Positions 1 through 54,113 of a stretch of 55,165 nucleotides of DNA are shown one piece after another; the first letter of the stretch is position 1; the number at the start of each line of letters is the position of its first letter. The notes under the pieces are model-generated. The model had not been told where the DNA came from. It saw nothing but the letters and a program-made list of their open reading frames with translations, and made no database searches. Made by a program: the position numbers and the translations under genes. Origin of the DNA: Alistipes sp. (GTDB taxonomy: Bacteria > Bacteroidota > Bacteroidia > Bacteroidales > Rikenellaceae); the NCBI GenBank assembly GCA_017937805.1, contig JAGBCX010000044.1:1-55165 (forward strand), in the 5' to 3' direction.

Positions 1-46
1 ATAGAAGATAGAAGATAGAAGATAGAAGAGAGGAGATAGGAGATAG
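1..46. repeat. Heptanucleotide repeat (ATAGAAG)n
   Basis: Four perfect ATAGAAG units (1-28) followed by degraded purine-rich copies (AGAGAGG, AGATAGG). The period is seven bases. It belongs to the family of seven-base repeats found at many other places in this window. The window starts inside it, so its true length is unknown. Confidence 0.85.
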
Positions 47-65
47 ATGTCGAGAGATGTGTTCT

Positions 66-100
66 AACTTTTAACTTTTAACTTTGCACTTTTAACTTTT
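66..100. repeat. Heptanucleotide repeat (AACTTTT)n carrying a promoter box
   Basis: Five contiguous seven-base units: AACTTTT, AACTTTT, AACTTTG, CACTTTT, AACTTTT. The variant third unit provides TTTG at 83-86, exactly 19 bases before the TATCTTTG box at 106-113, so the repeat appears to build the -33 element of the promoter. Confidence 0.85.
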
Positions 101-113
101 TTGGTTATCTTTG
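83..113 (+). promoter_or_regulatory. Bacteroidetes promoter for the FMN riboswitch transcript
   Basis: TTTG at 83-86, 19-base spacer, TATCTTTG at 106-113, matching the Bacteroides consensus TTTG/TAnnTTTG. Transcription should begin near 120, just before the FMN aptamer. Bases 82-113 match 3696-3727 at about 29 of 32 positions, a second promoter of the same build. Confidence 0.75.
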
Positions 114-119
114 CAGTCA

Positions 120-268
120 GAATACTCGGGGCAGGGTGAAATTCCCTACCGGCGGTGATAGTCCGCGACTCCCTATGGCGGTGATTTATAATAAATTACA
201 ATCTGATGGGACTGAATCGGTGAAATTCCGATACCGACGGTTAGAGTCCGGATGAGAGAGTGGGTGAG
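120..268 (+). ncRNA. FMN riboswitch (RFN element)
   Basis: The RFN hallmarks are present in order: the GGGGCAGGGTGAAATTCCC helix near 128-146, CCGGCGGTGATAGTCCGCGA near 149-168, a variable arm, GACTGAATCGGTGAAATTCCGATACCGACGG split over 209-240, and the closing AGAGTCCGGATGAGAGAG near 243-260. These are the conserved P2-P6 segments of the FMN aptamer. The next gene on this strand is a TonB-dependent receptor at 578, not a riboflavin synthesis gene. A rho-independent terminator at 533-566 sits between the aptamer and that gene and is the obvious expression platform. Confidence 0.93.
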
Positions 269-315
269 GTTGTATTAAACCTATTTACAGCGTTCTTTTA
301 TGTTCTTTTGGGCTC

Positions 316-373
316 TTTTTAATTGTAATTCTTGTTGCATAGTACCGCTATGCGCCGCAAATTACAATTAAAA
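316..373. repeat. Long hairpin with GCATAG core in the FMN leader
   Basis: A perfect 15-bp inverted repeat, 316-330 against 359-373 (TTTTTAATTGTAATT and its complement), encloses a second hairpin GCATAG (337-342)/CTATGC (348-353). It lies between the FMN aptamer and the terminator. The core resembles sequences in the inverted repeats at 442-499 and 7209-7330. Confidence 0.7.
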
Positions 374-441
374 ATAACCACAAAACAACTATAAAATTAC
401 TTTGTAAACAAGTTCAAAACAACCTCGGATTTATGAATGGT

Positions 442-499
442 GATTTCTGCGTTACGCTTAGTATGCTGCGGTTTCTCGAACTTTGCAAGCCTTGAAATC
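442..499. repeat. Inverted repeat with GCTTAGTATGCTGCG core
   Basis: Six-base ends GATTTC (442-447) and GAAATC (494-499) flank an internal GCTTAGTATGCTGCG. The element at 7209-7330 carries GCTTACTATGCTGCG in the same relative place, so the two look related. It sits in the leader of the TonB receptor gene. Confidence 0.45.
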
Positions 500-532
500 T
501 CTCATTCAAAATCAACCTTCATTTGTGGTTAT

Positions 533-566
533 AATGTCCCGAATTATGTTTGGGACATTTTTTATT
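533..566 (+). terminator. Intrinsic terminator of the FMN riboswitch leader
   Basis: AATGTCCC (533-540) pairs with GGGACATT (552-559), followed by TTTTATTT. It lies 12 bases before the receptor start codon, so readthrough is needed for expression. This is the arrangement expected for transcription attenuation by the upstream FMN aptamer. A competing antiterminator was not identified. Confidence 0.75.
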
Positions 567-577
567 TATATACAGAT

Positions 578-3500
578 ATGAAGCGTTTTACACTTGCTTT
601 ATTTGCTTTGGTGGCGACAATAGCAGCCACCGCACAATCAACTACTGCATCGTTGCAGGGTTTTGTTACGGACAATAACGGTAAGCCGTTAGTGGGTGCT
701 ACGGTGGTGGCTACGCACTTGCCGACAGAAACGGTATATGGCACAATTACAGATGCAAACGGCGAGTATCGCTTGCAGGGCTTGCGTGTGGGTGTGCCAT
801 ATATGGTGGAGCTCTCGTTTGTGGGTTACAAGGATAAGAAGATTGAGGATATCGCCCTATCGTTAGGCGAAAAGCAACAGATAGATGCGCAACTATCCGA
901 CACGCAAAACATTGATGCTGTTGTGGTTACAAGCGACAAGTTTAGAGCGAGCCGAATGGGGGCAGGCGAGGCTTTCAGTAGCGATATTATCGAACGCACT
1001 CCAACGGTTTCGCGCTCGATAGATGATATTACGCGATTAGCTCCGCAGGCTATGGTGTCGAAAGATGGCGGTATCTCCATCGCTGGTACAAACTCTCGCT
1101 ACAACTCCTTCCAGATTGACGGTACTGCATCGAACGATATGTACGGCTTGACCTCGACGGGTACAAATGGCGGTTTGGCAGGTGCAAACCCCATTCCGCT
1201 TGATGCAATTTCGGATATTCAGGTCGTAACGGCACCTTTCGATGTTCGCCAAGGCGGTTTTAGTGGCGGAGGTATAAATGCCATTACAAAGTCGGGCTCA
1301 AACACCTTCTCAGGTACGGCATACGCCTACTATAACGACCAGGATTTCTATGGCCGAAGCCCTATGAACGGAGCAAAACTTGCGGAGCAGAGAACGCAGA
1401 TTTACGGCGTGTCGCTCGGTGGTGCAATCGTCAAAAATAAGTTGTTTTTCTTCCTCAACGGAGAGTTTAACCTCGACTCCTCGCCCTCGTCGTACTATGT
1501 GGGCGATAGCGGTTGCAACATCTCCGAGAGCGATGCGCAGACAATTGCAAATCGCTTCTACGAACTTACGGGTTACGATGGTGGCGGCTACGGCATACAG
1601 ACACTAAAAAGGCATACAGGCTCGTTAATTGCGCGACTTGATTGGAATATCTCGTCACGCCACAACCTCTCGTTGCGCTACAACTTCCTCGATGCACGAA
1701 AAGATGAATTTGTGTCGAGTGCTACCGAACTGCGCTTCAATGGCGAGGGCTACACCTCGATTGCCGATACGCACTCGGTGGTTGCGGAGTTGCACTCGCG
1801 CGTGTCGGAGAAGATGTTTAACGAGTTCCGAGTAGGCTACACCCGAGTACACGATGGTCGCGATGCAATGAGTGGCGAGAAATATCCCTATGTAGAGATT
1901 AAGAAGATGCGTGACGGTGAAAATACAAAGGTCCTCATTGGTACAGACCCATTCGCCATTATGAACGATTTGGTGCAGAATACCGTTACGCTGACCGACA
2001 ACTTCTCCTACTATGCCGATTCGCACACGATAACAATCGGTACGCACAACGAGATTTTCAACTCTTCGTGCCTCTATATGGCGAATGCGTTGGGTGCATA
2101 TACTTACAATACGCTACAAGATTTTCTTGACGATAAGGCGAATAAATATGTGCGCAACTACTCTGACAATCCTTATACAAATATAACTTCTGCACAATTT
2201 GGCGTATATATTCAGGACGAGTGGAACGCCTCGTCCCGCTTTTCGATGACCTATGGTCTGCGAGCCGATATCCCTGTGATATTCGGAAACCCTCCCACAA
2301 ATGAGGCGTTCAACTCTTCTGATGTGGCACAAAAGTATGGCATAAAGACCAACCAAGTGCCAACTCCTACGGTATTGCTCTCGCCACGTATCGGAGTGCG
2401 CTGGCAAATAGCCAAGAGCGCAGAGGCTTCGACATTGTTGCGTGGTGGCGTGGGTATATTCTCGGGAAGAATACCGTTTGTGTGGATATCCAACTGCTTC
2501 TCCAATAGCGGTATGACACAACGCGGATATACGCTCAAAGACTCATCAACGCCAAAGTTTCGCGAGGAGCCTTCAGGCACGGAGGGAGTATCCTCTAACC
2601 CGATGATAAATATCGTGGCGAAGGATTTTCGTTATCCGCAAGTGGCGCGTGCAACACTCGCCTTGGAGCAAGATTATAAGGGTTGGCACTTTGCGGTTGA
2701 GGGTATCTTCTCGAAGTCTATTAACGACCTCTTGATTACCAATCTTACGGCACAAGATAAGGGTAATAAGTTATTTGCCGTAAATTCGGCTCTTGCAAAT
2801 GAGCAGAATACCACAACCCTCTACGACACATCGTTGGCGAAGTCATACTCTTCGATTTACCTCTTATCGAACACCTCGAAGGGGTATGGCTATTCGGTGA
2901 GTGCATCGGTGGCAAAGCACTTCCGCTTTGGTTTGGACCTCTACGCTGCATATACCTTTGCTCACTCCTACTCGGTAATGGACGGCATCTCGGCACAGGC
3001 TCTCAACACTTGGAGTCGCAACTACTCGGCAGATAGCAACAATCAGGCGTTGAGTTACTCGTTGTTTGATGTTCCGCACAAGGTTACCGCTTCGCTCTCG
3101 TATCGTACACCTCGCTATGCGAAGGTGCTCGGCACGACTATCTCGTTGCTCTATCAGGGCTATTCGGGTATGCGCTACTCGTTGACTTATGCGGGCGAAG
3201 ATGCAAACAATGACAGCAGTAACGGCAATACGACAATCTATGTGCCTACGGCAGATGAGTTGCAGGCTATGGAGTTCGAGAGCGAGGAGCAACGCACTGC
3301 CTTCGGGGAGTATATCGAGGCGACACCTGCCCTGCGCCGTTCTCGTGGTAAATTCCTTGCACGAAACGCCTTGCAGACACCTTTCGAGCACCATCTCGAC
3401 CTCCATATTGCGCAGGATATCTACTTCGGAGATAATACCTCACGTAAGGTGCAGATTTCGCTCGATGTGATAAATCTCGGCTCGCTCATCTCGAAGGATT

Positions 3501-3676
3501 GGGGAGCAAGTTACTACACCTCGAAGTATCGCCTGTCGCCTGTTGAGGTTTGTGATAAGATAACTGATGCTGATGGTAACCGCACACCGAAATATCGCTT
3601 TGTGGGTGGCGAGGTGTCGCGCAACGATCTTCTCTCTCGTTGGCGTATGCAGGTGGGTGTAAGAGTGGTATTTTAG
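578..3676 (+). CDS. TonB-dependent receptor, FMN-riboswitch controlled
   Basis: Outer-membrane TonB-dependent receptor of 1032 residues. An N-terminal signal peptide (about 1-20, ending ATAQ) is followed by a CarboxypepD-regulatory-like domain (about 25-105, with GKPLVGATV and FVGYKD), a plug (about 110-240, including GGINAITKSGSN) and a barrel ending in phenylalanine. The architecture is Oar-like; no SusD partner follows. The start at 578 is chosen because the longer open frame from 437 runs through the riboswitch leader and its terminator, and because a clean signal peptide begins here. The FMN aptamer upstream suggests uptake of riboflavin or another flavin; that substrate is inferred from regulation only. 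It could instead carry a different ligand under flavin control. Confidence 0.88.
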   Translation: MKRFTLALFALVATIAATAQSTTASLQGFVTDNNGKPLVGATVVATHLPTETVYGTITDANGEYRLQGLRVGVPYMVELSFVGYKDKKIEDIALSLGEKQQIDAQLSDTQNIDAVVVTSDKFRASRMGAGEAFSSDIIERTPTVSRSIDDITRLAPQAMVSKDGGISIAGTNSRYNSFQIDGTASNDMYGLTSTGTNGGLAGANPIPLDAISDIQVVTAPFDVRQGGFSGGGINAITKSGSNTFSGTAYAYYNDQDFYGRSPMNGAKLAEQRTQIYGVSLGGAIVKNKLFFFLNGEFNLDSSPSSYYVGDSGCNISESDAQTIANRFYELTGYDGGGYGIQTLKRHTGSLIARLDWNISSRHNLSLRYNFLDARKDEFVSSATELRFNGEGYTSIADTHSVVAELHSRVSEKMFNEFRVGYTRVHDGRDAMSGEKYPYVEIKKMRDGENTKVLIGTDPFAIMNDLVQNTVTLTDNFSYYADSHTITIGTHNEIFNSSCLYMANALGAYTYNTLQDFLDDKANKYVRNYSDNPYTNITSAQFGVYIQDEWNASSRFSMTYGLRADIPVIFGNPPTNEAFNSSDVAQKYGIKTNQVPTPTVLLSPRIGVRWQIAKSAEASTLLRGGVGIFSGRIPFVWISNCFSNSGMTQRGYTLKDSSTPKFREEPSGTEGVSSNPMINIVAKDFRYPQVARATLALEQDYKGWHFAVEGIFSKSINDLLITNLTAQDKGNKLFAVNSALANEQNTTTLYDTSLAKSYSSIYLLSNTSKGYGYSVSASVAKHFRFGLDLYAAYTFAHSYSVMDGISAQALNTWSRNYSADSNNQALSYSLFDVPHKVTASLSYRTPRYAKVLGTTISLLYQGYSGMRYSLTYAGEDANNDSSNGNTTIYVPTADELQAMEFESEEQRTAFGEYIEATPALRRSRGKFLARNALQTPFEHHLDLHIAQDIYFGDNTSRKVQISLDVINLGSLISKDWGASYYTSKYRLSPVEVCDKITDADGNRTPKYRFVGGEVSRNDLLSRWRMQVGVRVVF

Positions 3677-3696
3677 CGTAATTCTTGGCGTTTGGC

Positions 3697-3727
3697 TTTG
3701 CGCTTTTAACTTTTTTTGCTATCTTTG
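3697..3727 (+). promoter_or_regulatory. Bacteroidetes promoter
   Basis: TTTG at 3697-3700, 19-base spacer, TATCTTTG at 3720-3727, serving the gene at 3751. The region 3696-3727 is nearly the same as 82-113, including the CTTTTAACTTTTTT stretch between the boxes. Confidence 0.7.
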
Positions 3728-3750
3728 TAAGTTAAAGAAATTGTATACTT

Positions 3751-4548
3751 ATGAATTTGAAAGATAGATTGCAACGAATGTTGCAGATTGTGGAGGAGTC
3801 GGAGCGTGTGGGTGCGTTGTCCGACCTTGAACGAGATATTCTCTTGAATGACCTGCGTGAGGCGTATGCCGAATTGAAATTCGGCAAAACGGAGAACGAT
3901 GATTTTTCGGTCGTTCCTACAACCCCTACTGAGGAGATTAAGTCGGAGCCCGAACCTGCGGTTGAGCCAGAGGAGGAGAGTGAGCCAGAGGTTGAAGCTG
4001 ATGACGAGCCGGAGGTTGAGGTGGAAATTATCTTCGATGAGGAGGAAAATGACGAAGAGGACCCTGCTGTCGCTGAGCCTGCTGTCGCAGAGCCTGTTGT
4101 TGCTGAGCCTGTTGTTGCTGAGCCTGTTGTTGCTGAAACCCCTAACACCCCTATCGTAGAGGAAAATCTCTCAACTCTCAACTCTCAATTCTCAACTCCA
4201 AAGCGCAGCCCACTGCTATCTCTCTATGAAGATGAGCCAATGCCGATACTTGGTGAGCAGTTCCATGAGAAGCCGTCAGTTGCCGATACCATTGCCTGCC
4301 CGAAGGGTGTGGCAGAGAGTGCTCCCGTAACATCGTTGCGTGATGCGATAGGTGTGGCGGATAAGTTTATGTTGATAAGAGAGTTGTTCGCGGGTGATGC
4401 TGTGGCATACGATAGTGCTATTGAGGCACTTGATAAGCAAGCATCATTTGATGACTGCATAATCTTTATTGCAGAGCATTATGCTTGGGCACCAAACTCG
4501 CAAGCCACAAAGCTTGTGATGGATTTACTACAAAGAAAATATAATTAA
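3751..4548 (+). CDS. Acidic repeat protein, conserved Bacteroidetes family of unknown function
   Basis: 265 residues, no signal peptide or membrane segment. An N-terminal helical part (1-45, MNLKDRLQRMLQIVEE) is followed by a very acidic Glu/Pro/Val linker (50-130) that ends in five VAEP-type repeats coded by 15-bp tandem units (4066-4140). A C-terminal domain (about 150-265) contains SLRDAIGVADKFMLIRELF and a HYAWAPNS motif that I recall as conserved in Bacteroidetes hypothetical proteins. A seven-base repeat (4168-4195) is read in frame as STLNSQFST between linker and domain. It is 21 bases upstream of rsmI and probably cotranscribed. Function unknown; the layout suggests a tethered C-terminal domain. 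Confidence 0.8.
   Translation: MNLKDRLQRMLQIVEESERVGALSDLERDILLNDLREAYAELKFGKTENDDFSVVPTTPTEEIKSEPEPAVEPEEESEPEVEADDEPEVEVEIIFDEEENDEEDPAVAEPAVAEPVVAEPVVAEPVVAETPNTPIVEENLSTLNSQFSTPKRSPLLSLYEDEPMPILGEQFHEKPSVADTIACPKGVAESAPVTSLRDAIGVADKFMLIRELFAGDAVAYDSAIEALDKQASFDDCIIFIAEHYAWAPNSQATKLVMDLLQRKYN
4066..4140. repeat. 15-bp tandem repeat coding VAEP units
   Basis: Five 15-base units of the form GCTGTCGCTGAGCCT / GTTGTTGCTGAGCCT, giving (A/V)VAEP repeats in the acidic linker. The last three are almost identical, which points to recent slippage. Changes in copy number keep the frame. Confidence 0.85.
4168..4195. repeat. Heptanucleotide repeat (CTCTCAA)4 inside a gene
   Basis: CTCTCAA, CTCTCAA, CTCTCAA, TTCTCAA, read in frame within the acidic repeat protein. 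The same kind of repeat (AATTCTC) occurs between genes at 45381 and 50636. Confidence 0.8.
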
Positions 4549-4569
4549 AATGCCAATGGCTAAGAAACT

Positions 4570-5274
4570 ATGGCAAAACTCTATATAGTACCTACGCCGA
4601 TAGGCAATTTGGAGGATATAACACTGCGCGCAATACGAGTGCTGAAAGAGGTGGATTTCATCTTGGCAGAGGATACGCGTACGAGCTCGGTGTTGCTTAA
4701 GCATCTCGGCATAGAGAAGCCCTTGCGCTCGCATCATAAGTTCAACGAACATGCTACTGTGCAGATGGTGGCTGATGCAATCGAAGCGGGCAAAGATGTA
4801 GCTTTGGTGTCGGACGCAGGAACACCGGGCATTTCGGACCCGGGATTCTTGTTGGTGCGCACATGCGTAGAGAGGGGTGTTGATGTAGTAACCTTGCCGG
4901 GAGCTACTGCATTTGTGCCGGCATTGGTGCAGAGTGGTTTTCCATGCGACAGATTCTGTTTTGAGGGCTTTTTGCCACAGAAGAAGGGGCGTAAAAAACG
5001 TATCGAAGCATTGGCTGACGAGGAGCGCACAATGATATTCTACGAATCGCCATTCCGCGTAGTGAAGTGCTTGGAGCAGTTGGCCGAGGTCCTTGGCGAG
5101 GAGCGCGAGGTAGCTGTATCGCGTGAAATTACAAAGATGTTCGAGGAGACCGTGCGCGGAACGCTTGCCGAGGTGGCAATGCATTTCCGTCAGCACACAC
5201 CAAAGGGTGAGTTTGTGATTGTGGTGGCAGGTCGCTCAAACAAAAAATCAAGAGACGAAGAGGATGAAGAGTAA
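4570..5274 (+). CDS. rsmI: 16S rRNA (cytidine-1402-2'-O)-methyltransferase RsmI
   Basis: 234 residues of the tetrapyrrole-methylase fold. RsmI 2'-O-methylates C1402 in the decoding centre of 16S rRNA using S-adenosylmethionine. Diagnostic motifs are VPTPIGNLEDITLRA near the N-terminus, AEDTRTSSVLL, SDAGTPGISDPG near 80-91 and LPGATAFVPALVQSG. The protein is shorter than the E. coli form (about 286) and lacks the extra C-terminal region, which fits Bacteroidetes versions. Its end overlaps the next gene: the acyltransferase ATG at 5264 precedes the rsmI stop at 5272-5274, suggesting coupled translation. Confidence 0.95.
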   Translation: MAKLYIVPTPIGNLEDITLRAIRVLKEVDFILAEDTRTSSVLLKHLGIEKPLRSHHKFNEHATVQMVADAIEAGKDVALVSDAGTPGISDPGFLLVRTCVERGVDVVTLPGATAFVPALVQSGFPCDRFCFEGFLPQKKGRKKRIEALADEERTMIFYESPFRVVKCLEQLAEVLGEEREVAVSREITKMFEETVRGTLAEVAMHFRQHTPKGEFVIVVAGRSNKKSRDEEDEE

Positions 5275-6208
5275 AATCAATAAGATTGCAGAAGATGTGG
5301 CTGTGGAGTTGTTGTGGGCGGTATGTTATCTGTTCGCATTGTTGCCACGTTGCGTGCGTTACGGGCTATTTACACCGATTACATCATTTCTTCTACGCAA
5401 GGTCGCACACTACCGCTATGACGTAATCATGGGTCAATTACGCGACTCCTTCCCCGAAAAAGAGGAGGCGGAGATTGCCGATATATGCCGCCGCTACTAC
5501 GACCATCTTGCCGAGATGATTATAGGTACATTATCATTGGCGGGTGTAAGTGATAAGAAGCGAGCAAAGTGTACCGAATTTGATTTTTCCGACAACTTCA
5601 AGGAGGAGATTGATGGTCGCAATATTGTAGCAATGACCTCGCATTACGGATTTTGGGAGATTGCCTTGAATCTCTATCTCGTAGCACCAAAACACCATCT
5701 TGTGGTGGCATATCGTCCATTGAAGAGTCGTGTGATGGATAGATTTTACTACCGCCTGCGAAAAGGTCACTCGGTAGATGCTGTTGCAAGCAAGAATTTC
5801 ATGCGCTACTATGTAGCTAATCGTCACGGAATAAATGGCAAAAATATTGTGGTAGGACTTATCTCCGACCAAAATTGCCCTGTAACCAAAGGTTGTTGTT
5901 GGCACAACTTCTTAAATCACGACTCGCTCTTCTTTGACGGTGCAGAGCAGTTGGCCATGAAGTTCGGGCTACCGGTCTACTATGTGGAGTTGGAGCGTAT
6001 TAAGGCGGGGTGCTATCGTCATCACTACACCCTAATATATGACGGAAAGGAGGAGGTGAAACCTCACGAGATAACGGAGCGATATGTGCGCCATTTGGAA
6101 CGTACAATCCAGGCAAAACCGGAGTATTGGATGTGGTCGCATAAGCGATGGAAATTTACTCCTGACGAGAACTCTCTGTTTTACGATAACTACAAAGATA
6201 GAGTATAG
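5264..6208 (+). CDS. Lipid A biosynthesis acyltransferase (LpxL/HtrB family)
   Basis: 314 residues, inner-membrane associated, expected to transfer an acyl chain to a lipid A precursor. The catalytic HX4E motif is seen as HYGFWE at residues 127-132, and an N-terminal hydrophobic segment lies at about 12-28. The start at 5264 overlaps rsmI by 11 bases; the longer frame from 5219 reads through rsmI and lacks support. The following glycosyltransferase begins 3 bases after the stop, so the two probably share a transcript and a role in envelope glycolipid synthesis. The exact acyl donor and position cannot be told from sequence. Confidence 0.88.
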   Translation: MKSKINKIAEDVAVELLWAVCYLFALLPRCVRYGLFTPITSFLLRKVAHYRYDVIMGQLRDSFPEKEEAEIADICRRYYDHLAEMIIGTLSLAGVSDKKRAKCTEFDFSDNFKEEIDGRNIVAMTSHYGFWEIALNLYLVAPKHHLVVAYRPLKSRVMDRFYYRLRKGHSVDAVASKNFMRYYVANRHGINGKNIVVGLISDQNCPVTKGCCWHNFLNHDSLFFDGAEQLAMKFGLPVYYVELERIKAGCYRHHYTLIYDGKEEVKPHEITERYVRHLERTIQAKPEYWMWSHKRWKFTPDENSLFYDNYKDRV

Positions 6209-6211
6209 AGC

Positions 6212-7210: not shown

Positions 7211-7330
7211 ATCGTTTTTATGAGTTCTTTTTGCACGAGAGCATCGGTCGTCAAAATGCTCACATAGGCTTACTATGCTGCGCTTTTGTCGCCTTGCTTC
7301 GCACAAAAATAATCTCATAATTTACGATTT
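7209..7330. repeat. 122-bp long inverted repeat element
   Basis: Outer arms AAATCGT (7209-7215)/ACGATTT (7324-7330) and TTATGAG (7218-7224)/CTCATAA (7314-7320), then imperfect pairing between TTTTTGCACGAGAGCA and TGCTTCGCACAAAAA, with a GCTTACTATGCTGCG core. It begins inside the stop codon of the glycosyltransferase. It has the look of a REP or MITE-like extragenic element and codes for nothing visible. Confidence 0.7.
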
Positions 7331-7343
7331 AGAGGCGTGATGA

Positions 7344-7371
7344 AATTAAGAATTAAGAATTGAGAATTAAA
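7344..7371. repeat. Heptanucleotide repeat (AATTAAG)4
   Basis: Units AATTAAG, AATTAAG, AATTGAG, AATTAAA. Same flavour as the repeats at 22813, 34459 and 54072. Confidence 0.85.
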
Positions 7372-7388
7372 AATAAACAGTTAAAGCG

Positions 7389-7490: not shown

Positions 7491-7523
7491 ACAAGGTTAG
7501 GAGTTCGGAAAACAAAATATATT

Positions 7524-8237: not shown

Positions 8238-8249
8238 AAAAAGTTACAG

Positions 8250-10965: not shown

Positions 10966-11005
10966 TTTTTTGTGCGTTATATACTGCATTTTAATTTCTT
11001 TTTCC

Positions 11006-11013
11006 TATCTTTG
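11006..11013 (+). promoter_or_regulatory. Promoter -7 box for the cobalamin operon
   Basis: TATCTTTG, matching TAnnTTTG. Transcription should start near 11020, at the first bases of the cobalamin riboswitch. Confidence 0.65.
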
Positions 11014-11019
11014 CATCGT

Positions 11020-11252
11020 CAGAGGTTCCGGTGCAGAGCCACGCTCGCACGGATTAAAACGGAATTCGGTGCAAATCCGAAACAGTACCTGCTGCTGTAA
11101 GTTCCTGCCCCAGAGGGTGCAAGGGTTGTGTCGGGAGATGCAACACTGTGCAAAAAAGGGGGTAAAAAGGCACTCTTTGCCACTGGTCTTTTTTAGGGAT
11201 TGGGAAGGCGCCTTGCGGAACAAGTCAGAAGACCTACCTCGACATTTTTGTT
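11020..11252 (+). ncRNA. Cobalamin riboswitch
   Basis: The conserved blocks are present in order: GGTTCCGGTGCAGAGCC at the 5' side, CGGTGCAAATCCGAAACAGT, the CTGCTGCTGTAAG core, GGCACTCTTTGCCACTG, GGGAAGGCGCC and the closing AAGTCAGAAGACCTACC near 11223-11239. The organisation fits the AdoCbl class with a long variable P-region. It precedes three coupled genes ending in a BtuB-like receptor, the standard target of B12 repression in Bacteroidetes. Confidence 0.93.
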
Positions 11253-11292
11253 TAACAATCCGCAGGCAATCGGATTATAAAACTTACATTTT

Positions 11293-22769: not shown

Positions 22770-22812
22770 ACTATTTTTATTTAAGTAAGTGTCAATTTAG
22801 CTATCAACCGAA

Positions 22813-22884
22813 AATTAAAAATTAAGAATTAAAAATTAAGAATTACCTTAATTGTCAATTGTCAATTATCAATTATCAATTGAT
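22813..22884. repeat. Two adjoining heptanucleotide repeats (AATTAAR and AATTRTC)
   Basis: 22813-22847: AATTAAA, AATTAAG, AATTAAA, AATTAAG, AATTACC. 22850-22884: AATTGTC, AATTGTC, AATTATC, AATTATC, AATTGAT. Both are strictly seven-base and fill most of the engB-prs gap. Confidence 0.9.
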
Positions 22885-26356: not shown

Positions 26357-26983
26357 ATGAGTGTTATCGTAGAGGTAATTACTGCGCATTTGCGCTCCAA
26401 TCGTAGATTGGTTGTTCCTAACTTCGGAGCCTTTGTGGTGAAGGAGTCGGGAGAGTATCTGTTTTCCGACCTATTGCGCGATGATGATGGAGTACTTGCA
26501 TCTCTGTTGCGCGAAAAGGGGCTGAGTGAGATGGAGGCGGCAGTTATGACCGATCGCTTTATATTCGAAGTACGTCACGAATTGGAGCAGTATGGCTATT
26601 GTCGTTTGGGGGATATAGGAACACTGCGTATTGAGCCAGATACCAAAGTGCTTAAGCTCTATCCGCCTGTGCAGGGCGAACTGCCAAAGCAGACTCCGTA
26701 CATTCCGAAACAAGTTTCGGAAGCGGAAAACGGAGAACGGAAAACTGAAAACGAAGATAAGAGTATAGGTGGCGATAATGAAACCCCTGCAACCTTTGCA
26801 ACGCCTAAGAAACCTATAAAACCTCGTAAAAAGGTTGATTTTGTGATAGTTGTGGCGGTAATTATTCTGTTGGCGGCATTGGTCGGTATTGGTTACGGCT
26901 GGTATGTCTCAAATCTCGGTGTTGCAGATGATGATGCCGCTATGGACGCATTGAGAGTGACGTCAGAACAATTAAACGAATAG
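26357..26983 (+). CDS. HU-like domain protein with a transmembrane segment
   Basis: 208 residues. An N-terminal prokaryotic HU/CCDC81-like domain (about 1-100: IVEVITAHLRSNRRLVVPNFGAFVV, ending GDIGTLRIEPD) is followed by a low-complexity linker and one transmembrane helix near 160-185 (VIVVAVIILLAALVGIGYGWYV in parts), with a short outer tail. Related Bacteroidetes proteins pair this domain with SPOR repeats; no SPOR is seen here. The linker contains seven-base repeats (26725-26752) read as ENGERKTENED. Seven bases from the sigma-54 activator gene. May link nucleoid or another partner to the membrane; unproven. Confidence 0.75.
   Translation: MSVIVEVITAHLRSNRRLVVPNFGAFVVKESGEYLFSDLLRDDDGVLASLLREKGLSEMEAAVMTDRFIFEVRHELEQYGYCRLGDIGTLRIEPDTKVLKLYPPVQGELPKQTPYIPKQVSEAENGERKTENEDKSIGGDNETPATFATPKKPIKPRKKVDFVIVVAVIILLAALVGIGYGWYVSNLGVADDDAAMDALRVTSEQLNE
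26725..26752. repeat. Heptanucleotide repeat (GGAAAAC)4 inside a gene
   Basis: GGAAAAC, GGAGAAC, GGAAAAC, TGAAAAC, in frame within the HU-like gene linker. The reverse complement flavour (GTTTTCC) occurs at 29649 and 45921 between or at the ends of genes. Confidence 0.85.
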
Positions 26984-28206: not shown

Positions 28207-28716
28207 ATGAAGAGATTTTGCTTTATATTGTGTAGTTTAATGCTTTTGCTAACAAGCGGTTGCACGGTTAAATATACATTGTCGGGTGCTTCGATTCCAC
28301 CCGATGCAAAGACCTTCTCGGTGGCATATTTCCCGAACAATGCTCCGATGGTTGCGCCTATTTTGAGTGCAACACTGACAGATGAACTCACTCAGCGCTT
28401 TGCAACGCGAACACGCTTGGTGCAGGTACCGGAGGGTGGCGACTTTGCTTTCGAAGGTGAGATTGTGGGCTACACCTCAACAACATCTTCGGTGTCGAGT
28501 GGCGATTATGCCCTGCAAAACCGATTGACAATCACTGTGAAAGTCAATTTTACCAATGCGATAGACGATAAGGCCTCATTTAAGGCGAAAACCTTTTCGG
28601 CCTATGCCGACTATGACTCAACGAAGTTGCTGAATGAGGTGGAGAGTACCCTTATCCCTGAGATTGTGGAGCAACTCGTTACGGATATATTTATGGCGGC
28701 AGCCTCGAATTGGTAA
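28207..28716 (+). CDS. lptE: LPS-assembly lipoprotein LptE
   Basis: 169 residues; signal sequence and lipobox LTSGC with acylated Cys19. LptE plugs the LptD barrel and helps insert lipopolysaccharide into the outer leaflet. The Bacteroidetes LptE signature is seen: VKYTLSGASIPPDAKTFSVAYFPNNAP (in parts), LTDELTQRF, and EGEIVGYTST. Begins two bases after the activator stop, so the two are one transcript. Confidence 0.9.
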   Translation: MKRFCFILCSLMLLLTSGCTVKYTLSGASIPPDAKTFSVAYFPNNAPMVAPILSATLTDELTQRFATRTRLVQVPEGGDFAFEGEIVGYTSTTSSVSSGDYALQNRLTITVKVNFTNAIDDKASFKAKTFSAYADYDSTKLLNEVESTLIPEIVEQLVTDIFMAAASNW

Positions 28717-28717
28717 C

Positions 28718-28731
28718 GGAAAACGGAAACT
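28718..28731. repeat. Short heptanucleotide repeat (GGAAAAC)2
   Basis: GGAAAAC and GGAAACT directly after the lptE stop codon, the minimal form of this repeat family. Confidence 0.5.
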
Positions 28732-29648: not shown

Positions 29649-29683
29649 GTTTTCCGTTTTCCGTTTTCCGTTTTCCGTTTTTA
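29649..29683. repeat. Heptanucleotide repeat (GTTTTCC)5 upstream of a promoter
   Basis: Four perfect GTTTTCC units (29649-29676) and one GTTTTTA. It occupies the -33 region of the following TATTTTTG box. Confidence 0.9.
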
Positions 29684-29687: not shown

Positions 29688-29695
29688 TATTTTTG
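29688..29695 (+). promoter_or_regulatory. Promoter -7 box for the TPR gene
   Basis: TATTTTTG, 26 bases before the start codon. The -33 position falls inside the GTTTTCC repeat, where TTTC rather than TTTG is found. Confidence 0.55.
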
Positions 29696-34458: not shown

Positions 34459-34513
34459 AATTAAGAATTAAAAATTAAAAATTATTTATAGTTAATGGCT
34501 AACGGCTAATGGC
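34459..34513. repeat. Heptanucleotide repeats (AATTAAR)4 and (TAATGGC)3
   Basis: 34459-34486: AATTAAG, AATTAAA, AATTAAA, AATTATT. 34493-34513: TAATGGC, TAACGGC, TAATGGC. The third TAATGGC carries the ATG (34509) that is the upstream start candidate for the next gene. Confidence 0.88.
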
Positions 34514-36039: not shown

Positions 36040-36134
36040 TATTTATTTCGCAAGCGGACTAACAAATCGGCAAAGCACGACAAGGGTTTACGAAAGTCAG
36101 CAAGACCACTTATACTTATATTATTATATAGAGC

Positions 36135-36162
36135 TAATGGCCAATGGCTAATAGCTGATGGT
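36135..36162. repeat. Heptanucleotide repeat (TAATGGC)4 upstream of rpsB
   Basis: TAATGGC, CAATGGC, TAATAGC, TGATGGT, in the rpsI-rpsB spacer. Same flavour as 34493-34513. It lies just before a TACTTTG sequence (36176-36182) that may be the promoter. Confidence 0.85.
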
Positions 36163-45380: not shown

Positions 45381-45415
45381 AATTCTCAATTCTTAATTCT
45401 CAATTCTCAATTTTG
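45381..45415. repeat. Heptanucleotide repeat (AATTCTC)5
   Basis: AATTCTC, AATTCTT, AATTCTC, AATTCTC, AATTTTG, just downstream of the zinc-ribbon gene stop at 45421. Confidence 0.9.
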
Positions 45416-45800: not shown

Positions 45801-45843
45801 AATTTTTCACTCGTTATTTGGTTATACATTTACTTTCACGATG

Positions 45844-45880: not shown

Positions 45881-45884
45881 TAAA

Positions 45885-45914: not shown

Positions 45915-45920
45915 CTATCA

Positions 45921-45955
45921 GTTTTCCGCTTTCCGTTTTCAGTTTTCCGCTTTAA
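45921..45955. repeat. Heptanucleotide repeat (GTTTTCC)5 at the end of a gene
   Basis: GTTTTCC, GCTTTCC, GTTTTCA, GTTTTCC, GCTTTAA. Read on the minus strand, the repeat encodes the last residues of the SGNH hydrolase (LKAEN) and its TGA stop (45939-45941). Confidence 0.88.
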
Positions 45956-47255: not shown

Positions 47256-47264
47256 AACTTGTTG

Positions 47265-48500: not shown

Positions 48501-48503
48501 ATA

Positions 48504-49427
48504 CTATTTATTTACTTGGAAACGGGTGTTTCCGTTTACGAAATAATCTACAATCTGTCGTGCAGCAGCCAAACCTGCGTTGATATTAGCTTCGGCAGTC
48601 TCGGCTCCCATCTTCTTCGGAGTTCCGAAGTAGCGCTTACCGAACTTCTCAGCATACTCCGCAGCGGCATCAGGAGCAACATCGGTGATGTATTTCAAAT
48701 CTTCTCGTTCCTCCAAAGCCTTTGCCAAGCCTACCTCGTCAATAACCTCCTTGCGGGCAGTATTTACGAGTGTAGCACCCTTCGGCATCGACATTGCAAG
48801 GTCATAACCGATTGAGCCTTTGGTCTGTGGCGTTGCAGGGATATGCAACGAGAGAAAATCGGCACGGCGATACAACTCCTCCACCGAATCAACCTTCTCT
48901 ACCCCATCAGCCTCGAATACGGCAGCGTCAGAGATAAATGGATCGTAGGCGATAACATTCATGCCGAGAGCCTTGCCCTTGCGACCTACCAACTTGCCGA
49001 CATTTCCGTAGGCGTGAATTGCGAGTGTCTTGCCGATAAGTTCGTGACCTGTGCCCGGAGTGAGCTGGTTGCGCGACATATAGACCATAAAACAGAGCGC
49101 CAACTCCGCCACAGCATTCGAGTTCTGTCCTGGAGTGTTCATCACCACGATACCTCGCTTCTTCGCCTCCTCGCAATCGACATTGTCGAAGCCTGCACCG
49201 GCGCGAACAACGATTTTGAGGTTTTTGGCAGCCTCCATGACCTCCTTTGTAACCTTGTCGCTGCGAACGATAAGTGCATCAACATCGGCTACCGCAGCGA
49301 GCAAATCGCCTTTGTCCGCATATTTTTCGAGCAGTACGACCTCATACTCTGCCGCCTGCAAAATCTCTTTGATGCCATTTACAGCCTCTTTTGCAAATGG
49401 CTTTTCGGTTGCAATAAGAACTTTCAT
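48504..49427 (-). CDS. serA: D-3-phosphoglycerate dehydrogenase
   Basis: 307 residues from MKVLIATEKPFAKEAV. It oxidises 3-phosphoglycerate to 3-phosphohydroxypyruvate, the first step of serine synthesis. NAD-binding HAYGNVGKLVG has Ala at the first Gly, as I recall for Bacteroidetes enzymes; RAGAGFDNVD, MNTPGQNSNAVAEL and TARKEVIDEVGL carry substrate and catalytic residues. No C-terminal ACT domain, so no classic serine feedback site. The frame is open to an ATG at 49502, which would add 25 residues (MATIVPYTYEKKEEK...) and shorten the gap to serC to three bases; this alternative cannot be excluded. Confidence 0.9.
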   Translation of the reverse strand: MKVLIATEKPFAKEAVNGIKEILQAAEYEVVLLEKYADKGDLLAAVADVDALIVRSDKVTKEVMEAAKNLKIVVRAGAGFDNVDCEEAKKRGIVVMNTPGQNSNAVAELALCFMVYMSRNQLTPGTGHELIGKTLAIHAYGNVGKLVGRKGKALGMNVIAYDPFISDAAVFEADGVEKVDSVEELYRRADFLSLHIPATPQTKGSIGYDLAMSMPKGATLVNTARKEVIDEVGLAKALEEREDLKYITDVAPDAAAEYAEKFGKRYFGTPKKMGAETAEANINAGLAAARQIVDYFVNGNTRFQVNK

Positions 49428-49505
49428 ACCCTTAATCAATGATGTAAAGTGTATAATTTTTTCCTCTTTTTTCTCGTATGTATAAGGAACGATTGTAGCC
49501 ATAAA

Positions 49506-50579
49506 CTACTTGGTTTTAAGTTGCTCAAACTCCTGCATGCAAGCCACGAGAGCCTCTACCGACTCCTTTGGACAAGCGTTGTAGCACGATGCACGGAAGC
49601 CACCCACAAGGCGGTGTCCCTTGATGCCGACCATACCACGCTCCTTTGCAAACTCCAAGAACTCAGGTGCTAAATCCTCGTTGCCCTCGGTCATCACGAA
49701 GCAGATATTCATCAAAGAACGGTCCTCCTTCGCTACGGTTGGGCGGAACAATGAGTTGCGCTCAATTTCGTTGTAGAGCAACTCTGCCTTCTCGATATTG
49801 CGGCGATACATCTCCTCTACGCCACCGATAGACTTCAACCACTTCAAAGTTTCGTTCAATACGAAGATTGGGAATACCGGCGGAGTGTTGAACATCGAAT
49901 CGTTCTCCACATGGGTTTTAACATTCATCATTGTTGGCAATGGGCGCACAACCTTTTCGAGCATATCGTCACGAATAATCACGAATGTTACGCCTGCAGG
50001 AGCAAGATTCTTCTGCGCACCACCATAGATAAGGGCATACTTCGAAACATCGACAGGACGGCTCAAAATATCTGATGACATATCGGCAATGAGAGGTACA
50101 GGACAATCCATATCAACCTTGTACTCAGTGCCGTAGATAGTGTTATTAGCGCAAATATAGAGGTAGTCCAAGTCGCTCGGAATCTCAAATCCTTTCGGAA
50201 TGTAGGAGAAATTTTTATCTTCACTTGAATCAACAACCTCTACCTCGCCATAATATTTAGCCTCTTTGATAGCCTTCTTTGTCCAAACTCCTGTATTTAC
50301 ATATCCTGCCTTTTTCCCGAGGAAGTTTGCCGGAATATGGAAGAACTGCGTACTTGCACCACCGCCTACAAAGTAGATTTGATAGTTCTCCGGAATGTGG
50401 AGCAACTCGCGGAAGAGAGCCTTTGCCTCTGCCAATACCGCCTCGAACTCCTTGCTACGGTGCGAATACGAAAGTACCGAAATTCCTGTTCCGTTGAAGT
50501 CAAAAATTGCCTTTGCTGCATTTTCGAGGGCTACTTCCGGCAATACCGAAGGTCCTGCGCTGAAATTGTGCTTTTTCAT
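49506..50579 (-). CDS. serC: Phosphoserine aminotransferase
   Basis: 357 residues, PLP enzyme of fold type I. Second step of serine synthesis, and also used in pyridoxine synthesis. Phosphate-binding GGGASTQFF near 74-82, [12 protein letters not shown] and the PLP lysine in [12 protein letters not shown]. The N-terminus [11 protein letters not shown] is the family signature. First gene of the serC-serA-DUF1015 set. Confidence 0.96.
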
Positions 50580-50633
50580 AGCTTTACTGTTTTTATAGTG
50601 AAAATAATCATTTACGATTTCATCTCTTGGGAG

Positions 50634-51623
50634 TTAATTCTCAATTCTCAATTTTGCATTTTGCATTCTGAATTTTGCATTCTGCATTTGATATCCCAAT
50701 AATAAATCACGCACTGCCATACGCTTTTTGCCCGCTACTTGCAACTCCTCGATGGCAACTACTCCATCGGCACACGCCACCTTGATATAGGTTTTGTTGT
50801 CGGTAAGTATCGTGCCAACCTCTGCCGAGTGTGATTGCCCCTCGAAACGAGCCTTGAAAATCTTTACCGATAGCTCCTCCTCGCCACGTTGCAATATGCT
50901 CCACGCAGCAGGATATGGCGACAATCCTCGCACGAAATTGACAATATCTTTGCCGTTTTTGCCCCAATCAACCTCGCACATATCTTTGAAAATCTTTGGT
51001 GCAGGGCGAAGATTGGTATCCTCTTGCGGCTGCTCTATCGGCTCTATATTGCCTGATGCAATCTTCTCCACGCTCTCCACCACAAGTTCTGCACCCATAG
51101 TCATCAAGCGGTCGTACAACTCGCCTACGCACTCCTTGTCGCCAATTGGCGTGCGTTGCTGACCGATTATCGCGCCTTTGTCAATCTCGTGGTTGAGGAG
51201 GAAGGTGGTGTTGCCACTCTCCTTGTCGCCATTGATAATAGCCCAATTTATAGGTGCTGCGCCGCGATATTCGGGGAGTAGTGATGCGTGTAAATTGAAT
51301 GTTCCGAAGCGTGGCATCGCCCAAACGACCTCGGGTAACATTCTGAATGCAATTACGATACCCAAATCGGGGTTTAGTTCGCGCATAGCCTCCAAAAACT
51401 CCTCGTCACGCAGCTTCTCGGGTTGCAAGATGGTTCGTATACCCGACTCTTTGGCGGCGCGTTTTACATCGCTCTCCTGCAATTTCATTCCGCGACCTGC
51501 AGGCTTATCGGGCATGGTGACCACACCCACAACATTGTAGCCACCCTCCACCAATGCCTTCAACGAAGGCACCGCGAACTCGGGCGTACCCATAAATATT
51601 ATGCGAATATCTTTTGCGTTCAT
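50634..51623 (-). CDS. fmt: Methionyl-tRNA formyltransferase with a repeat-derived tail
   Basis: 329 residues. Formylates initiator Met-tRNA using 10-formyltetrahydrofolate. N-terminal IIFMGTPEFAVPSLKAL, catalytic NLHASLLPEYRGAAPINWAI with HxSLLP and DKGAIIGQQ; a C-terminal OB-like domain ends near KRMAVRDLLLGYQ. The last 17 residues, read as two copies of MQNAK(F/L)R and IEN, come entirely from the seven-base repeat at 50636-50691, and so does part of the stop codon. They appear to replace the original terminus. Confidence 0.95.
   Translation of the reverse strand: MNAKDIRIIFMGTPEFAVPSLKALVEGGYNVVGVVTMPDKPAGRGMKLQESDVKRAAKESGIRTILQPEKLRDEEFLEAMRELNPDLGIVIAFRMLPEVVWAMPRFGTFNLHASLLPEYRGAAPINWAIINGDKESGNTTFLLNHEIDKGAIIGQQRTPIGDKECVGELYDRLMTMGAELVVESVEKIASGNIEPIEQPQEDTNLRPAPKIFKDMCEVDWGKNGKDIVNFVRGLSPYPAAWSILQRGEEELSVKIFKARFEGQSHSAEVGTILTDNKTYIKVACADGVVAIEELQVAGKKRMAVRDLLLGYQMQNAKFRMQNAKLRIEN
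50636..50691. repeat. Heptanucleotide repeat spanning the 3' end of fmt
   Basis: Eight units of seven: AATTCTC, AATTCTC, AATTTTG, CATTTTG, CATTCTG, AATTTTG, CATTCTG, CATTTGA. The AATTCTC flavour at one end gives way to CATTCTG. It encodes the C-terminus of Fmt. Confidence 0.9.
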
Positions 51624-51628
51624 CTCTC

Positions 51629-53176
51629 TTATTTGTTTGTTTTCGCCACCCTCTTGGCGCGACGAGCATTGCGTTTTTCGGCTTGTCGCTCCTCTCGCTC
51701 AGCGAGTTTTTGTTGCCACTTTTCGGGTAACTTAGCAATTAACTTTTCTCGATAGTGCTTGTAGCGACCAATATACCAATCGATATCGAGTAGTGCAGAG
51801 TCGTTATTCGCTTTGTGCGACAGATATATCGCCAAAGGCGTAAGGATAATGGCTGAAATCCACATTCCGAGCAGCGAACTCCAAGTACCCTCCTTGGCAT
51901 ACTTCTCGCCCGAGATGGATATGATGTAATAGATGACGAAGAATATCACCGAGATAACTATCGGCATACCCAAACCGCCCTTACGAATAATTGCGCCGAG
52001 AGGTGCTCCGATAAGGAAGAATATCAAAATCGAAATCGGCAGTGTCAGTTTGCGATGCCACTCGTTTTTACTACGATATAGCTGATTTAAAGCCTCTTTC
52101 GAGGTGCTTTCGTCAAAAGAGAACATGTTTCTGGAGTTACGAGCAGTGCGCAATGCATTTTCGTAGACCTTGTCTTTTAATCGAGTTTTCAGCTTCGGTA
52201 TGGAGTCGAGCAGGTCGGCTCTAAAACTCTTTTGTGACCTATCAATCTCCACCGAGTCGGGAGGAGCAACACCATCGGGATCCTGCGCAAATATCTGATC
52301 TCGCAATAGAGGGTTGTATGCTGTTGCCGTAAGGTTATTAACCAGCATATCGAGCGAATCGATACTGTGTTGCAAGTCACTTATATCCATCGTCTGGCTG
52401 TTGTTGCCGAACATATTTTCGTCACTGCGTTGAAAATCGAATCCCGACATCGGAATCTTACCATCTTGACGCTCGAACTTGTGGTGACGTAACGAACTCT
52501 TGGTGTACCAATGATGGTTACGGGTCTGTTCGTATGTCTCGCCATTGAATAACGTTACGAGCAGGTATCGTTTGTCGTCAGAAAGACGAATATAGCCCGA
52601 ATCGGCTATTGTTGTGGTCATATCGCCGCTGTGCGAACGATTGTCGTAGATGAGTACTCCCGTAAGCAACTTAGTCTTAGGGTCTTGCTTCTCTACACGA
52701 ATACTCATGTCGTCAATTCCGTTAAAGAAGAGTCCGTCTTGGAATTCGAGAGCCTCGTTTTGTTGCTTGATGTCGTAGAGCGTTGCAAACATCTTTTTGT
52801 TGGCCCATGGCACGAGGTCATTTACGATAAAGAACGAACCGAACGAGATTATGCCGATAACCCAAAACAGCGGCTTCATAATCTGCATCAACGACATGCC
52901 GGCCGACTTCATTGCCAGCAGTTCGTAGTTCTCACCGAGGTTTCCCATAGTCATAATCGTAGCGAGCAAGATAGCCAACGGCAAACCCATCGGAATCATG
53001 TTGATTGTCGCGTACATGATGAGTTCGAGAATAACCAATGGGTCCAAGCCCTTACCCACCAATTCATCGATATATCGCCATACGAAGTTCATCATCAGGA
53101 TAAAGATGATGATAAAGAAGGTCAGCACAAGCGGACCGAGATATGATTTGAGAACAAGTTGATGAATCTTCTTCAT
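51629..53176 (-). CDS. LptF/LptG family permease (YjgP/YjgQ)
   Basis: 515 residues. Six membrane segments in two groups of three (about 12-35, 55-80, 100-122 and 375-400, 405-425, 435-455) flank a large periplasmic beta-jellyroll region. Inner-membrane part of the LPS export bridge with LptB and LptC. The N-terminus IHQLVLKSYLGPLVLTFFI is usual. The family's F and G members cannot be told apart here. The charged C-terminal tail is long (KWQQKLAEREERQAEKRNARR, in parts). Downstream of the metal permease by six bases. Confidence 0.9.
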   Translation of the reverse strand: MKKIHQLVLKSYLGPLVLTFFIIIFILMMNFVWRYIDELVGKGLDPLVILELIMYATINMIPMGLPLAILLATIMTMGNLGENYELLAMKSAGMSLMQIMKPLFWVIGIISFGSFFIVNDLVPWANKKMFATLYDIKQQNEALEFQDGLFFNGIDDMSIRVEKQDPKTKLLTGVLIYDNRSHSGDMTTTIADSGYIRLSDDKRYLLVTLFNGETYEQTRNHHWYTKSSLRHHKFERQDGKIPMSGFDFQRSDENMFGNNSQTMDISDLQHSIDSLDMLVNNLTATAYNPLLRDQIFAQDPDGVAPPDSVEIDRSQKSFRADLLDSIPKLKTRLKDKVYENALRTARNSRNMFSFDESTSKEALNQLYRSKNEWHRKLTLPISILIFFLIGAPLGAIIRKGGLGMPIVISVIFFVIYYIISISGEKYAKEGTWSSLLGMWISAIILTPLAIYLSHKANNDSALLDIDWYIGRYKHYREKLIAKLPEKWQQKLAEREERQAEKRNARRAKRVAKTNK

Positions 53177-53182
53177 TATTTT

Positions 53183-54034
53183 TTAGGCTTTCGTAGCCCT
53201 CGCTTTTGTTCGTTTCAGTCGTTTAACCCACAAAGATAACAATTTTATTGTTAAAAACGCCAAAGTGAGCATGAAAATTATCGCCGGACCCGATGGCACT
53301 TCGGCGTGATAACTCAACGCAATGCCCGTAACTCCGCCAATTACAGCCACTGCCACCGCAATCGGTATGATTTTTTTGTAATCTTTGGAGAGGATATTTG
53401 CCGTAACTACGGGCATTGTCAGGAGCGAAATCAGCAGCACAATACCCATTGTGCGTATCGAAAGCACGATTGTTATGGCGGTTACGACAGCCATCGTGTA
53501 GTGTATAAATTTCACGGGAACTCCCGAAGCTTCGGCAAAGTTGCGGTCGAAGGCTGCGAACATTATCGGGCGGTGCCACAATAACGCACCTGCAATCAGC
53601 ACGATGGAGAGTATTGCGAGCGCAATGATGTCGCTATTTGTTACCGTTAAAATGCTTCCGAAGAGGAAATTTGCCATATCGCCTGAGGTGTATCCGGGGC
53701 GCAAAGCGATAAAAAATGCACCGATAGCCATACCTATACCCCACACCATGCCTATTGCTGAGTCGGGGCGAATTTTCGAGCGAGAGTTACTCCACTCGAT
53801 GCCGAGTGCCGAGAGAACGGCAAAAATGGTCGCTCCGAAAATTGGATTTGCACCAAAGTAGAATGCGATGCCCAAACCGCCAAACGAAGCGTGAGTGATG
53901 CCACCGCAGAGAAAAACCATTCTTCGTGCTACGATATATGTACCTATAATTCCGCAAGTTATGCCCGACAACACGCAGGCGATAAGAGCGTTTGAGAGGT
54001 AGTTGTATTGGAGTATGTCTGTTATGAAATCCAT
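53183..54034 (-). CDS. Metal ABC transporter permease (ZnuB/MntB-like)
   Basis: 283 residues with about eight transmembrane segments of the ABC-3 family. TYIVARRMVFLCGGITHASFGGLG is typical, as is RTMGIVLLISLLTMPVVTANIL. Family members carry zinc, manganese or iron. It is alone here, while a binding protein and ATPase for the same kind of metal are at 38253-39874; since those lack a permease, this is the natural partner. The start at 54034 is preferred over 54058. Confidence 0.88.
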   Translation of the reverse strand: MDFITDILQYNYLSNALIACVLSGITCGIIGTYIVARRMVFLCGGITHASFGGLGIAFYFGANPIFGATIFAVLSALGIEWSNSRSKIRPDSAIGMVWGIGMAIGAFFIALRPGYTSGDMANFLFGSILTVTNSDIIALAILSIVLIAGALLWHRPIMFAAFDRNFAEASGVPVKFIHYTMAVVTAITIVLSIRTMGIVLLISLLTMPVVTANILSKDYKKIIPIAVAVAVIGGVTGIALSYHAEVPSGPAIIFMLTLAFLTIKLLSLWVKRLKRTKARATKA

Positions 54035-54071
54035 ATTTTTGCGTGTTTTTACACGCAAAAATACGAATTAA

Positions 54072-54113
54072 AATTGAGAATTGAGAATTGAGAATTGAGA
54101 ATTAAAAATTAAA
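54072..54113. repeat. Heptanucleotide repeat (AATTGAG)4(AATTAAA)2
   Basis: Four AATTGAG units followed by two AATTAAA units, immediately upstream of the promoter region for the leader RNA. Confidence 0.9.

Follow-up and report, generated by a model that had tools for sequence, protein, structure and literature searches.

A 55,165-base contig of an Alistipes genome (JAGBCX010000044.1, hereafter the window) carries many short tandem arrays whose repeat unit differs from site to site and whose period is fixed at seven bases. The arrays have a sharp length mode at 31–33 bp, lie in about a quarter of the intergenic cases on one side of promoter −7 boxes, include a 32-mer that recurs exactly at separate sites, and carry other units at orthologous promoters. 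Our preferred explanation, to which we assign a probability of about 0.5 on the basis of sequence comparison, is that these are dispersed modules of five words at a seven-base pitch, which would arrive mostly preformed by copying, and some of which may be kept as interchangeable upstream regions of promoters.

The window is contig 32 of an assembly that is 85% complete (1,841,472 bases in 89 contigs). We analyzed it together with 40 further stretches of the same genome (771,786 bases, 42% of the assembly; hereafter the own-genome sample), and for some counts with 20 of them (455,165 bases). All of these stretches lie on contigs with a pattern match, so array density may be overstated. The initial annotation had listed 16 heptanucleotide sites in the window, and period-7 repeats were indeed present at all 16, two of them weak. 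For 15 of these coordinates, Tandem Repeats Finder (score 30 or more) recovered an array of period 7, although the one at 28,715 has only about two units; the site at 36,135 is an imperfect array, GCTAATGGCCAATGGCTAATAGCTGATGGT, with 17/23 lag-7 matches, under the cut-off of both this program and our imperfect-array finder, which drops arrays shorter than about 19 bp. Counting exact runs of 10 or more lag-7 matches, with order-3 Markov sequences as the control (one to ten sets each), we found 12 runs in the window compared with 0.2 in the simulated sequences, and each other period from 2 to 30 gave 0–4 runs. In the 455,165 bases, there were 73 such runs at lag 7 compared with 1.0 expected, and 42 each at periods 14 and 21. 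The own-genome sample contained 156 imperfect period-7 arrays, compared with 0 in one simulated set; the next periods were 21 (26 arrays), 9 (18), 14 (14), and 10 (11). The period peak at seven that had been put forward as a check is therefore clear in 42% of the genome. The combination of a fixed period and a varying unit was upheld, other lineages of the genus show period 7 with other units, and the switching of unit flavors inside a single array was seen at 50,636–50,688 and 54,072–54,113. The arrays are mainly intergenic: 140/156 in the own-genome sample and 74/86 in the 455,165 bases, of which 52,879 are intergenic, according to gene calls from a simple script written for this analysis. 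An assembly artefact is unlikely, as orthologous sites carry arrays in several assemblies from two naming series.

Array length is far from evenly spread. Sixty-nine of the 156 arrays measure 31–33 bp (18, 29, and 22 at 31, 32, and 33 bp, respectively), and just one measures 30 bp. Irrespective of the unit, these lengths correspond to five words separated by four spacers, for example, 5 × AATT with 4 × RAG, or 5 × AAAAC with 4 × GG. The same plan recurs elsewhere in the genus (genomes are labeled by G-numbers within a set of 180, and fetched stretches by L-numbers). In 40 short pieces of DNA selected by pattern matches from eleven other genomes, 25/46 arrays were 31–33 bp long and seven were 25 bp, that is, four words; G022, G071, and G080 have only one or two pattern matches each, yet carry a five-word array.

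The Bacteroidetes promoter consensus consists of a −33 and a −7 box. To describe the arrays relative to this consensus, we assigned the purine strand of each array by base composition and called an array anchored when a strict −7 box, TAnnTTTG, starts 4–8 bp past the end of the array on its pyrimidine strand. Of 140 intergenic arrays, 37 end at this distance upstream of such a box before a gene, and one has the box at the opposite end. About 1.3 would be expected by chance (140 × 5 × 0.0019, the mean intergenic box density); box density is higher near genes, which does not affect the one-sidedness. The 31–33 bp class is strongly over-represented at these boxes (29/37, compared with 40/119 elsewhere; Fisher p 2.7e-6). 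Relative to the Bacteroidetes promoter, anchored arrays stand where the native −33 region would be. Relatives without an array have an ordinary T-rich upstream region at the corresponding place (e.g., promoter 3 in G126 and G082), indicating that the array occupies the place of the −33 region. In that region, array promoters are T-rich with no G peak, whereas array-less promoters of array-poor congeners reach a G frequency of 0.41; T-rich stretches near −15, −22, and −37 are common to both kinds. A second preferred position is the end of genes: 30 arrays start no more than 12 bp from a stop codon or overlap it slightly, with the purine strand as the sense strand. Overall, 94 arrays have their purine 5′ side toward the closer gene end, compared with 28 that have the 3′ side toward it. 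Outside the closest clade, 6/30 arrays of a first sample were anchored, all six 31–33 bp long and built of other units. Anchoring is thus not confined to this genome, though its share varies between samples, which were partly picked around pattern matches.

The unit at a given promoter is not conserved between species. We compared 16 further promoters (of 32 eligible) with up to six relatives, under a laxer anchoring rule (array score 9 or more, box 2–10 bp away). Of 96 possible comparisons, upstream DNA was available in 65, with none for one promoter. An array lay within 150 bp in 46/65 and was anchored in 36/65. Across these 36, the unit consensus was identical in nine, differed at one position in ten and at two in four, and differed at three to four of the seven positions in 13; 23 of the 36 arrays were nevertheless 31–33 bp long. 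Upstream of an ABC-3 transporter gene, for example, the unit is AATTGAG here, AGTTGAG in G088, AAAACGG in G126, and AGACGAG in G082, and the array is absent in G087. The promoter at 29,649 carries AAAACGG here, AATTAAR in G121 and G156, a shorter AATT-type array in G123, and none in G126; in G094, G088, and G087, the 33-base five-word array has diverged, with its words, on visual inspection, better preserved than its spacers. A single origin followed by slow unit drift clashes with changes of three to four of the seven positions at one promoter.

Arrays away from promoters also differ from species to species at the same site, judging from clade relatives with one genome per species. At 45,381, past the stop of the gene upstream of recA, the same array is found in G088, G087, and G156, AAAACGG in G094 and G126, AGACGAG in G082, and none in G142 and G123. 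The array at 50,636–50,688 lengthens from G123 through G126 and G000 (no array in G088, G087, and G082) to G094; its purine 5′ part is constant, and its 3′ part varies in length between species. Because this array sits in the 3′-terminal part of a gene encoding a formyltransferase domain, species that differ in its units should also differ in the C-terminus of the protein.

Further evidence comes from an exact 32-mer, AAACGGAAAACGGAAAGCGGAAAACGGAAAAC, with 11 copies in the own-genome sample. Independent drawing of units predicts 2.0 copies over the 42 arrays of this family (p 3.7e-6), or 1.1 over the 22 arrays of at least 32 bp. The odd unit of this sequence sits in the middle: in anchored arrays of the family, the variant word AAAGC is word 3 in 11/14 cases, compared with 0/7, 0/14, and 2/14 for words 1, 2, and 4. 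This slot lies approximately at the expected position of the −33 box. In unanchored arrays of the family, AAAGC is again most often word 3 (9/24). Either whole modules were copied, or the middle word was selected at the −33 position, or both, and the unanchored cases favor copying.

AAAACGG arrays often continue into TTTTRGTTTTTCG and then into a GC-rich, hairpin-bearing element, which we call E1. The own-genome sample holds 20 E1 matches (e.g., L003:3441–3547 and L164:17554–17657), and visual inspection showed about 15 of these to be flanked on both sides by AAAACGG-like words. E1 also lies beside or inside arrays in G094, G156, G087, and G030, with other units in the latter two. A variant of E1 occurs within another dispersed-looking element that begins with GTCATTGCGAG (L010:13624, L016:8925). 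Separately, we observed inverted pairs of heptamer arrays 13–121 bp apart (L173, L174, L175, L176, L189, L206, and L209; genomes G076, G077, G023, and G072). The DNA between the paired arrays is locus-specific and, in some cases, contains a terminator-like hairpin by eye.

Array abundance varies widely within the genus. An AATT-type pattern of four words at pitch seven, which may match several times per array and has a reversed control that the same arrays match in part, had at least one match in 121/180 genomes, with forward counts from 0 to 334 (147 in this genome) and with about 44 genomes at 20 or more. A pattern of 2.5 AATTGAG units was found in 19/180 genomes, too narrow a picture by itself; ten of these 19, which hold most of the matches, belong to the closest clade (RelA identity of 86% or more), of which one member, G142, had no AATTGAG pattern match. 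Other lineages use other units (G033; AATTCAY/AATTRTG in G073, G076, and G077), and most other stretches from congeners showed 0 or 1 run. At the level of the class, 221/296 genomes matched the pattern, often no more than the reversed control, and a few stand out, such as G300 (112 compared with 6). Within the named collection, the closest loci belong to metagenome assemblies labeled Alistipes or Rikenellaceae, many of them labeled herbivore gut. In several congeners (G018, G090, G002, G196, and others), the open frame of the RelA/SpoT match contains stop codons.

Taken together, these observations suggest the following course of events. Five-word modules would arise and spread by copying from elsewhere in the genome, and unit gain or loss and substitutions would then edit them locally, as the differences between species show. 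Near genes, arrays would persist only where they are harmless, which may set their boundaries. Upstream of a −7 box, a module may replace the native −33 region, after which selection would keep length, phase, and strand, with the exact unit probably mattering little. Arrays past stop codons or in longer spacers look tolerated rather than used. A stronger form of this proposal holds that the upstream half of the promoter is an exchangeable five-word cassette, in which pitch, word number, and distance to the −7 box would be conserved and the word itself would be free, spreading as preformed 32-base modules that replace native −33 regions; we regard this form as possible and hold it only tentatively.

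Several results weigh against our proposal. Only a minority of the arrays stand at strict −7 boxes: among the 156, 37 are anchored, three are weak, 30 are at stop codons, 70 lie in other places, and 16 are coding. The 31–33 bp mode is also found away from boxes and is therefore not due to promoters alone. Anchoring was rarer in the second outside sample (5/46, three of them 31–33 bp) and in the loci of clade relatives (5/78), and 29/65 orthologous promoters had no anchored array. The arrays contain no clear TTTG −33 box, and the preference of AAAGC for word 3 away from boxes fits copying better than a −33 function. We found no seven-base rhythm common to promoters across the genus, as array-less promoters gave no lag-7 signal in the own-genome sample (z 0.9) or in array-poor congeners (z −0.9). 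Regarding the copying step, no enzyme was found among the RVT_1 and Y1 transposase families examined; other transposases and polymerases were not searched.

Replication slippage alone offers another account, in which seven would be the easiest slip step for a polymerase, arrays would vary everywhere, selection would clear them from genes, and stop codons and −7 boxes would merely mark where growth halts. The initial annotation had likewise suggested, behind the constant period, a process tied to unit length, such as a polymerase or recombinase step. Such a process is compatible with the period, and the polymerase idea is already in print (the 2007 survey of Mrazek et al., as cited in PMC4679880 and PMC4692102). 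Step-wise unit differences between species at 50,636 and 34,459 speak for slippage, as does a site with TAATGCAAAACATTAA in G126 and an AATGCAA array in G121, which looks like the product of growth from a seed already there. Such a process may still account for the period, but by itself it leaves unexplained the five-word length, the one-sided anchoring (37 compared with 1) to −7 boxes and the preference for stop codons, the occurrence of one 32-mer at 11 separate sites, and the differing units of equal length at one promoter; a sharp 31–33 bp mode is also not the falling length distribution that slippage would leave, even if the finder drops arrays below about 19 bp. We thus consider slippage as the sole cause rather unlikely. 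Loss of mismatch repair was rejected, with mutS1 above the cut-off in 20/20 chosen genomes, both array-rich and array-poor.

Alternatively, the arrays could represent the termini of miniature mobile elements in which a core is enclosed by an array and its inverted counterpart, as the E1 copies flanked by AAAACGG words, the E1 matches beside or inside arrays in four congeners, and the inverted pairs in G076, G077, G023, and G072 would suggest. We judge this more improbable than slippage, since the DNA between inverted arrays varies by locus, with terminator-like hairpins in some, the 20 E1 matches face 156 arrays, and a Y1 transposase was found in only two of the 180 congeners (G066 and G067), none in this clade; the same distribution led us to reject mobilization of the kind known from REP/RAYT elements. 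A repeat-reading regulator with the arrays as its regulon, as was proposed for five-heptanucleotide sites in Geobacter metallireducens (PMC2700814), would explain a preferred unit number and a narrow distance to the −7 box. It is nonetheless very unlikely, because a single sequence-specific protein can hardly read units that change at three to four of seven positions between species in 13/36 comparisons, and because the 16 query genes, judged without annotation, look like unrelated housekeeping genes. Least probable of all, to the point of being barely credible, is the copying of heptamers off an RNA template by a telomerase-like or other reverse transcriptase. In its favor, programmed repeat addition would yield arrays that start and finish on the same word, as these do, and some array-rich genomes encode RVT_1 genes (G093, G121, and G123). 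RVT_1 occurs in 61/180 congeners, but in none of the array-rich G000, G087, G088, G082, and G094, which leaves such synthesis unsupported; with these genomes 85–91% complete, the gene could have been missed in all five, though this is improbable.

Heptamer arrays and −7 boxes in the window (+, forward strand; −, reverse strand).
Feature	Position	Strand	Remarks
ATAGAAG/ATAGGAG array	1..46	+	contig begins inside the array
TAACTTT array, about five units	65..100	+	ends 5 bp before −7 box; upstream of FMN riboswitch
−7 box, TAnnTTTG	106..113	+	between TAACTTT array and FMN riboswitch
AGTTGAG/AATTGAG array	4168..4195	− (purine strand)	inside predicted gene
AATTAAG/AATTGAG array	7344..7368	+	intergenic, unanchored
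AATTAAR array	22811..22845	+	same site: AGACGAG-type in G121, TTAGCCA-type in G088 and G156, none in G142 and G123
AATTGAC/AATTGAT array, 32 bp	22850..22881	−	convergent with array at 22811..22845
AAAACGG array	26724..26752	+	inside predicted gene; E1 here in G094 and G087
AAAACGG, two units	28715..28729	+	at stop codon; E1 here in G094 and G156
AAAACGG array, 33 bp, five words	29649..29681	−	GTTTTCC on promoter strand
−7 box	29688..29695	+	6 bp downstream of array 29649..29681
AATTAAR array	34459..34484	+	12 bp past stop codon
TAATGGC array, three units	34493..34513	+	
Imperfect GCTAATGG-type array	36133..36162	+	under finders' cut-offs
AATTGAG/AATTAAG array, 32 bp	45381..45412	−	8 bp past stop of gene upstream of recA
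AAAACTG/AAAGCGG array	45923..45947	−	at gene end; relatives with mixed units
AATGCAR then AATTGAG array	50636..50688	−	3′ end of formyltransferase-domain gene (probably fmt)
−7 box	54056..54063	−	8 bp from array 54072..54113
AATTGAG then AATTAAA array	54072..54113	+	upstream of ABC-3 transporter gene

Three arrays of the window are anchored (65–100, 29,649–29,681, and 54,072–54,113). The −7 box of the last overlaps a predicted TTG start at 54,058, which makes a true start farther into the gene probable. The array at the first base of the contig points to breakage of assemblies at such arrays, and with it to an undercount. The window also contains FMN (118–267) and cobalamin (11,005–11,255) riboswitches matched in Rfam, the FMN one directly preceded by a −7 box and a heptamer array, and a 15-base tandem repeat of about five copies (4063–4136) in a gene with no Pfam match.

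Heptamer repeats as a kind are already known. Heptanucleotide long simple sequence repeats of prokaryotes were surveyed by Mrazek et al. (2007, as cited in PMC4679880 and PMC4692102), and our arrays share with them a tandem unit beyond chance, a mainly intergenic location, the preferred seven-base unit, patchiness between genomes, and an unfixed unit sequence; they differ from that general description in their sharp length mode near five words and in the fixed distance that one in four intergenic arrays keeps to a promoter box. The initial annotation knew of no equivalent in Bacteroidales, but the phylum has a precedent: TAACTGA direct repeats are reported from Beggiatoaceae, Cyanobacteria, and five Bacteroidetes, Paludibacter among them (PMC4679880). 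These are likewise dispersed heptamer arrays near gene starts. However, the description given there concerns one unit, which the Beggiatoaceae genome repeats two to six times, usually immediately ahead of start codons, and which was interpreted as translational; our arrays use many units, and those that are anchored are placed upstream of a −7 box. The GGGAATC repeats of Xanthomonas, as described in PMC4692102, resemble ours in having mostly four units, in sharing most gene neighbors between two close organisms while differing in length and sequence, and in forming some inverted pairs. Along with the GGGGAYT repeats of Nostoc, they are G-rich and were read there as quadruplexes; our arrays have no G-runs, so their four to five units are not explained in this way. 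The nearest published match in architecture is found in Geobacter metallireducens, with 49 elements of four GGGACCG units and with five tandem heptanucleotides, mostly paired, at 15/16 class-3 sites (PMC2700814). The units and the phylum are different, and promoter-box anchoring is absent from the passages describing these elements. Within Bacteroidales, the BrickBuilt miniature inverted-repeat transposable element (MITE) of Porphyromonas gingivalis is an intergenic tandem-repeat element with promoter elements, but it has a 23-base unit and inverted ends in its leader and tail (PMC4596501). Compared with such a MITE, E1 lies between AAAACGG words, yet the DNA between inverted arrays differs. 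Heptameric direct repeats of the SARP type are spaced more widely than our arrays. Among the matches listed in the open-access literature, judged by title or opening of the abstract and with most subscription papers outside this scope, none described five-word heptamer arrays at promoters in Bacteroidales. The claim that five-word arrays function in promoters is testable.

Why unrelated bacteria should prefer a unit of seven has been a standing question since at least 2007. The genus makes it testable, as it spans genomes with no match to genomes with hundreds and has orthologous promoters with different words. It could separate traits fixed by the process, namely the period and perhaps the number of five words, from traits fixed by selection, namely strand, phase, and distance. 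If the promoter reading is true, these bacteria would present a case of promoters rebuilt by dispersed repeats with their geometry kept.

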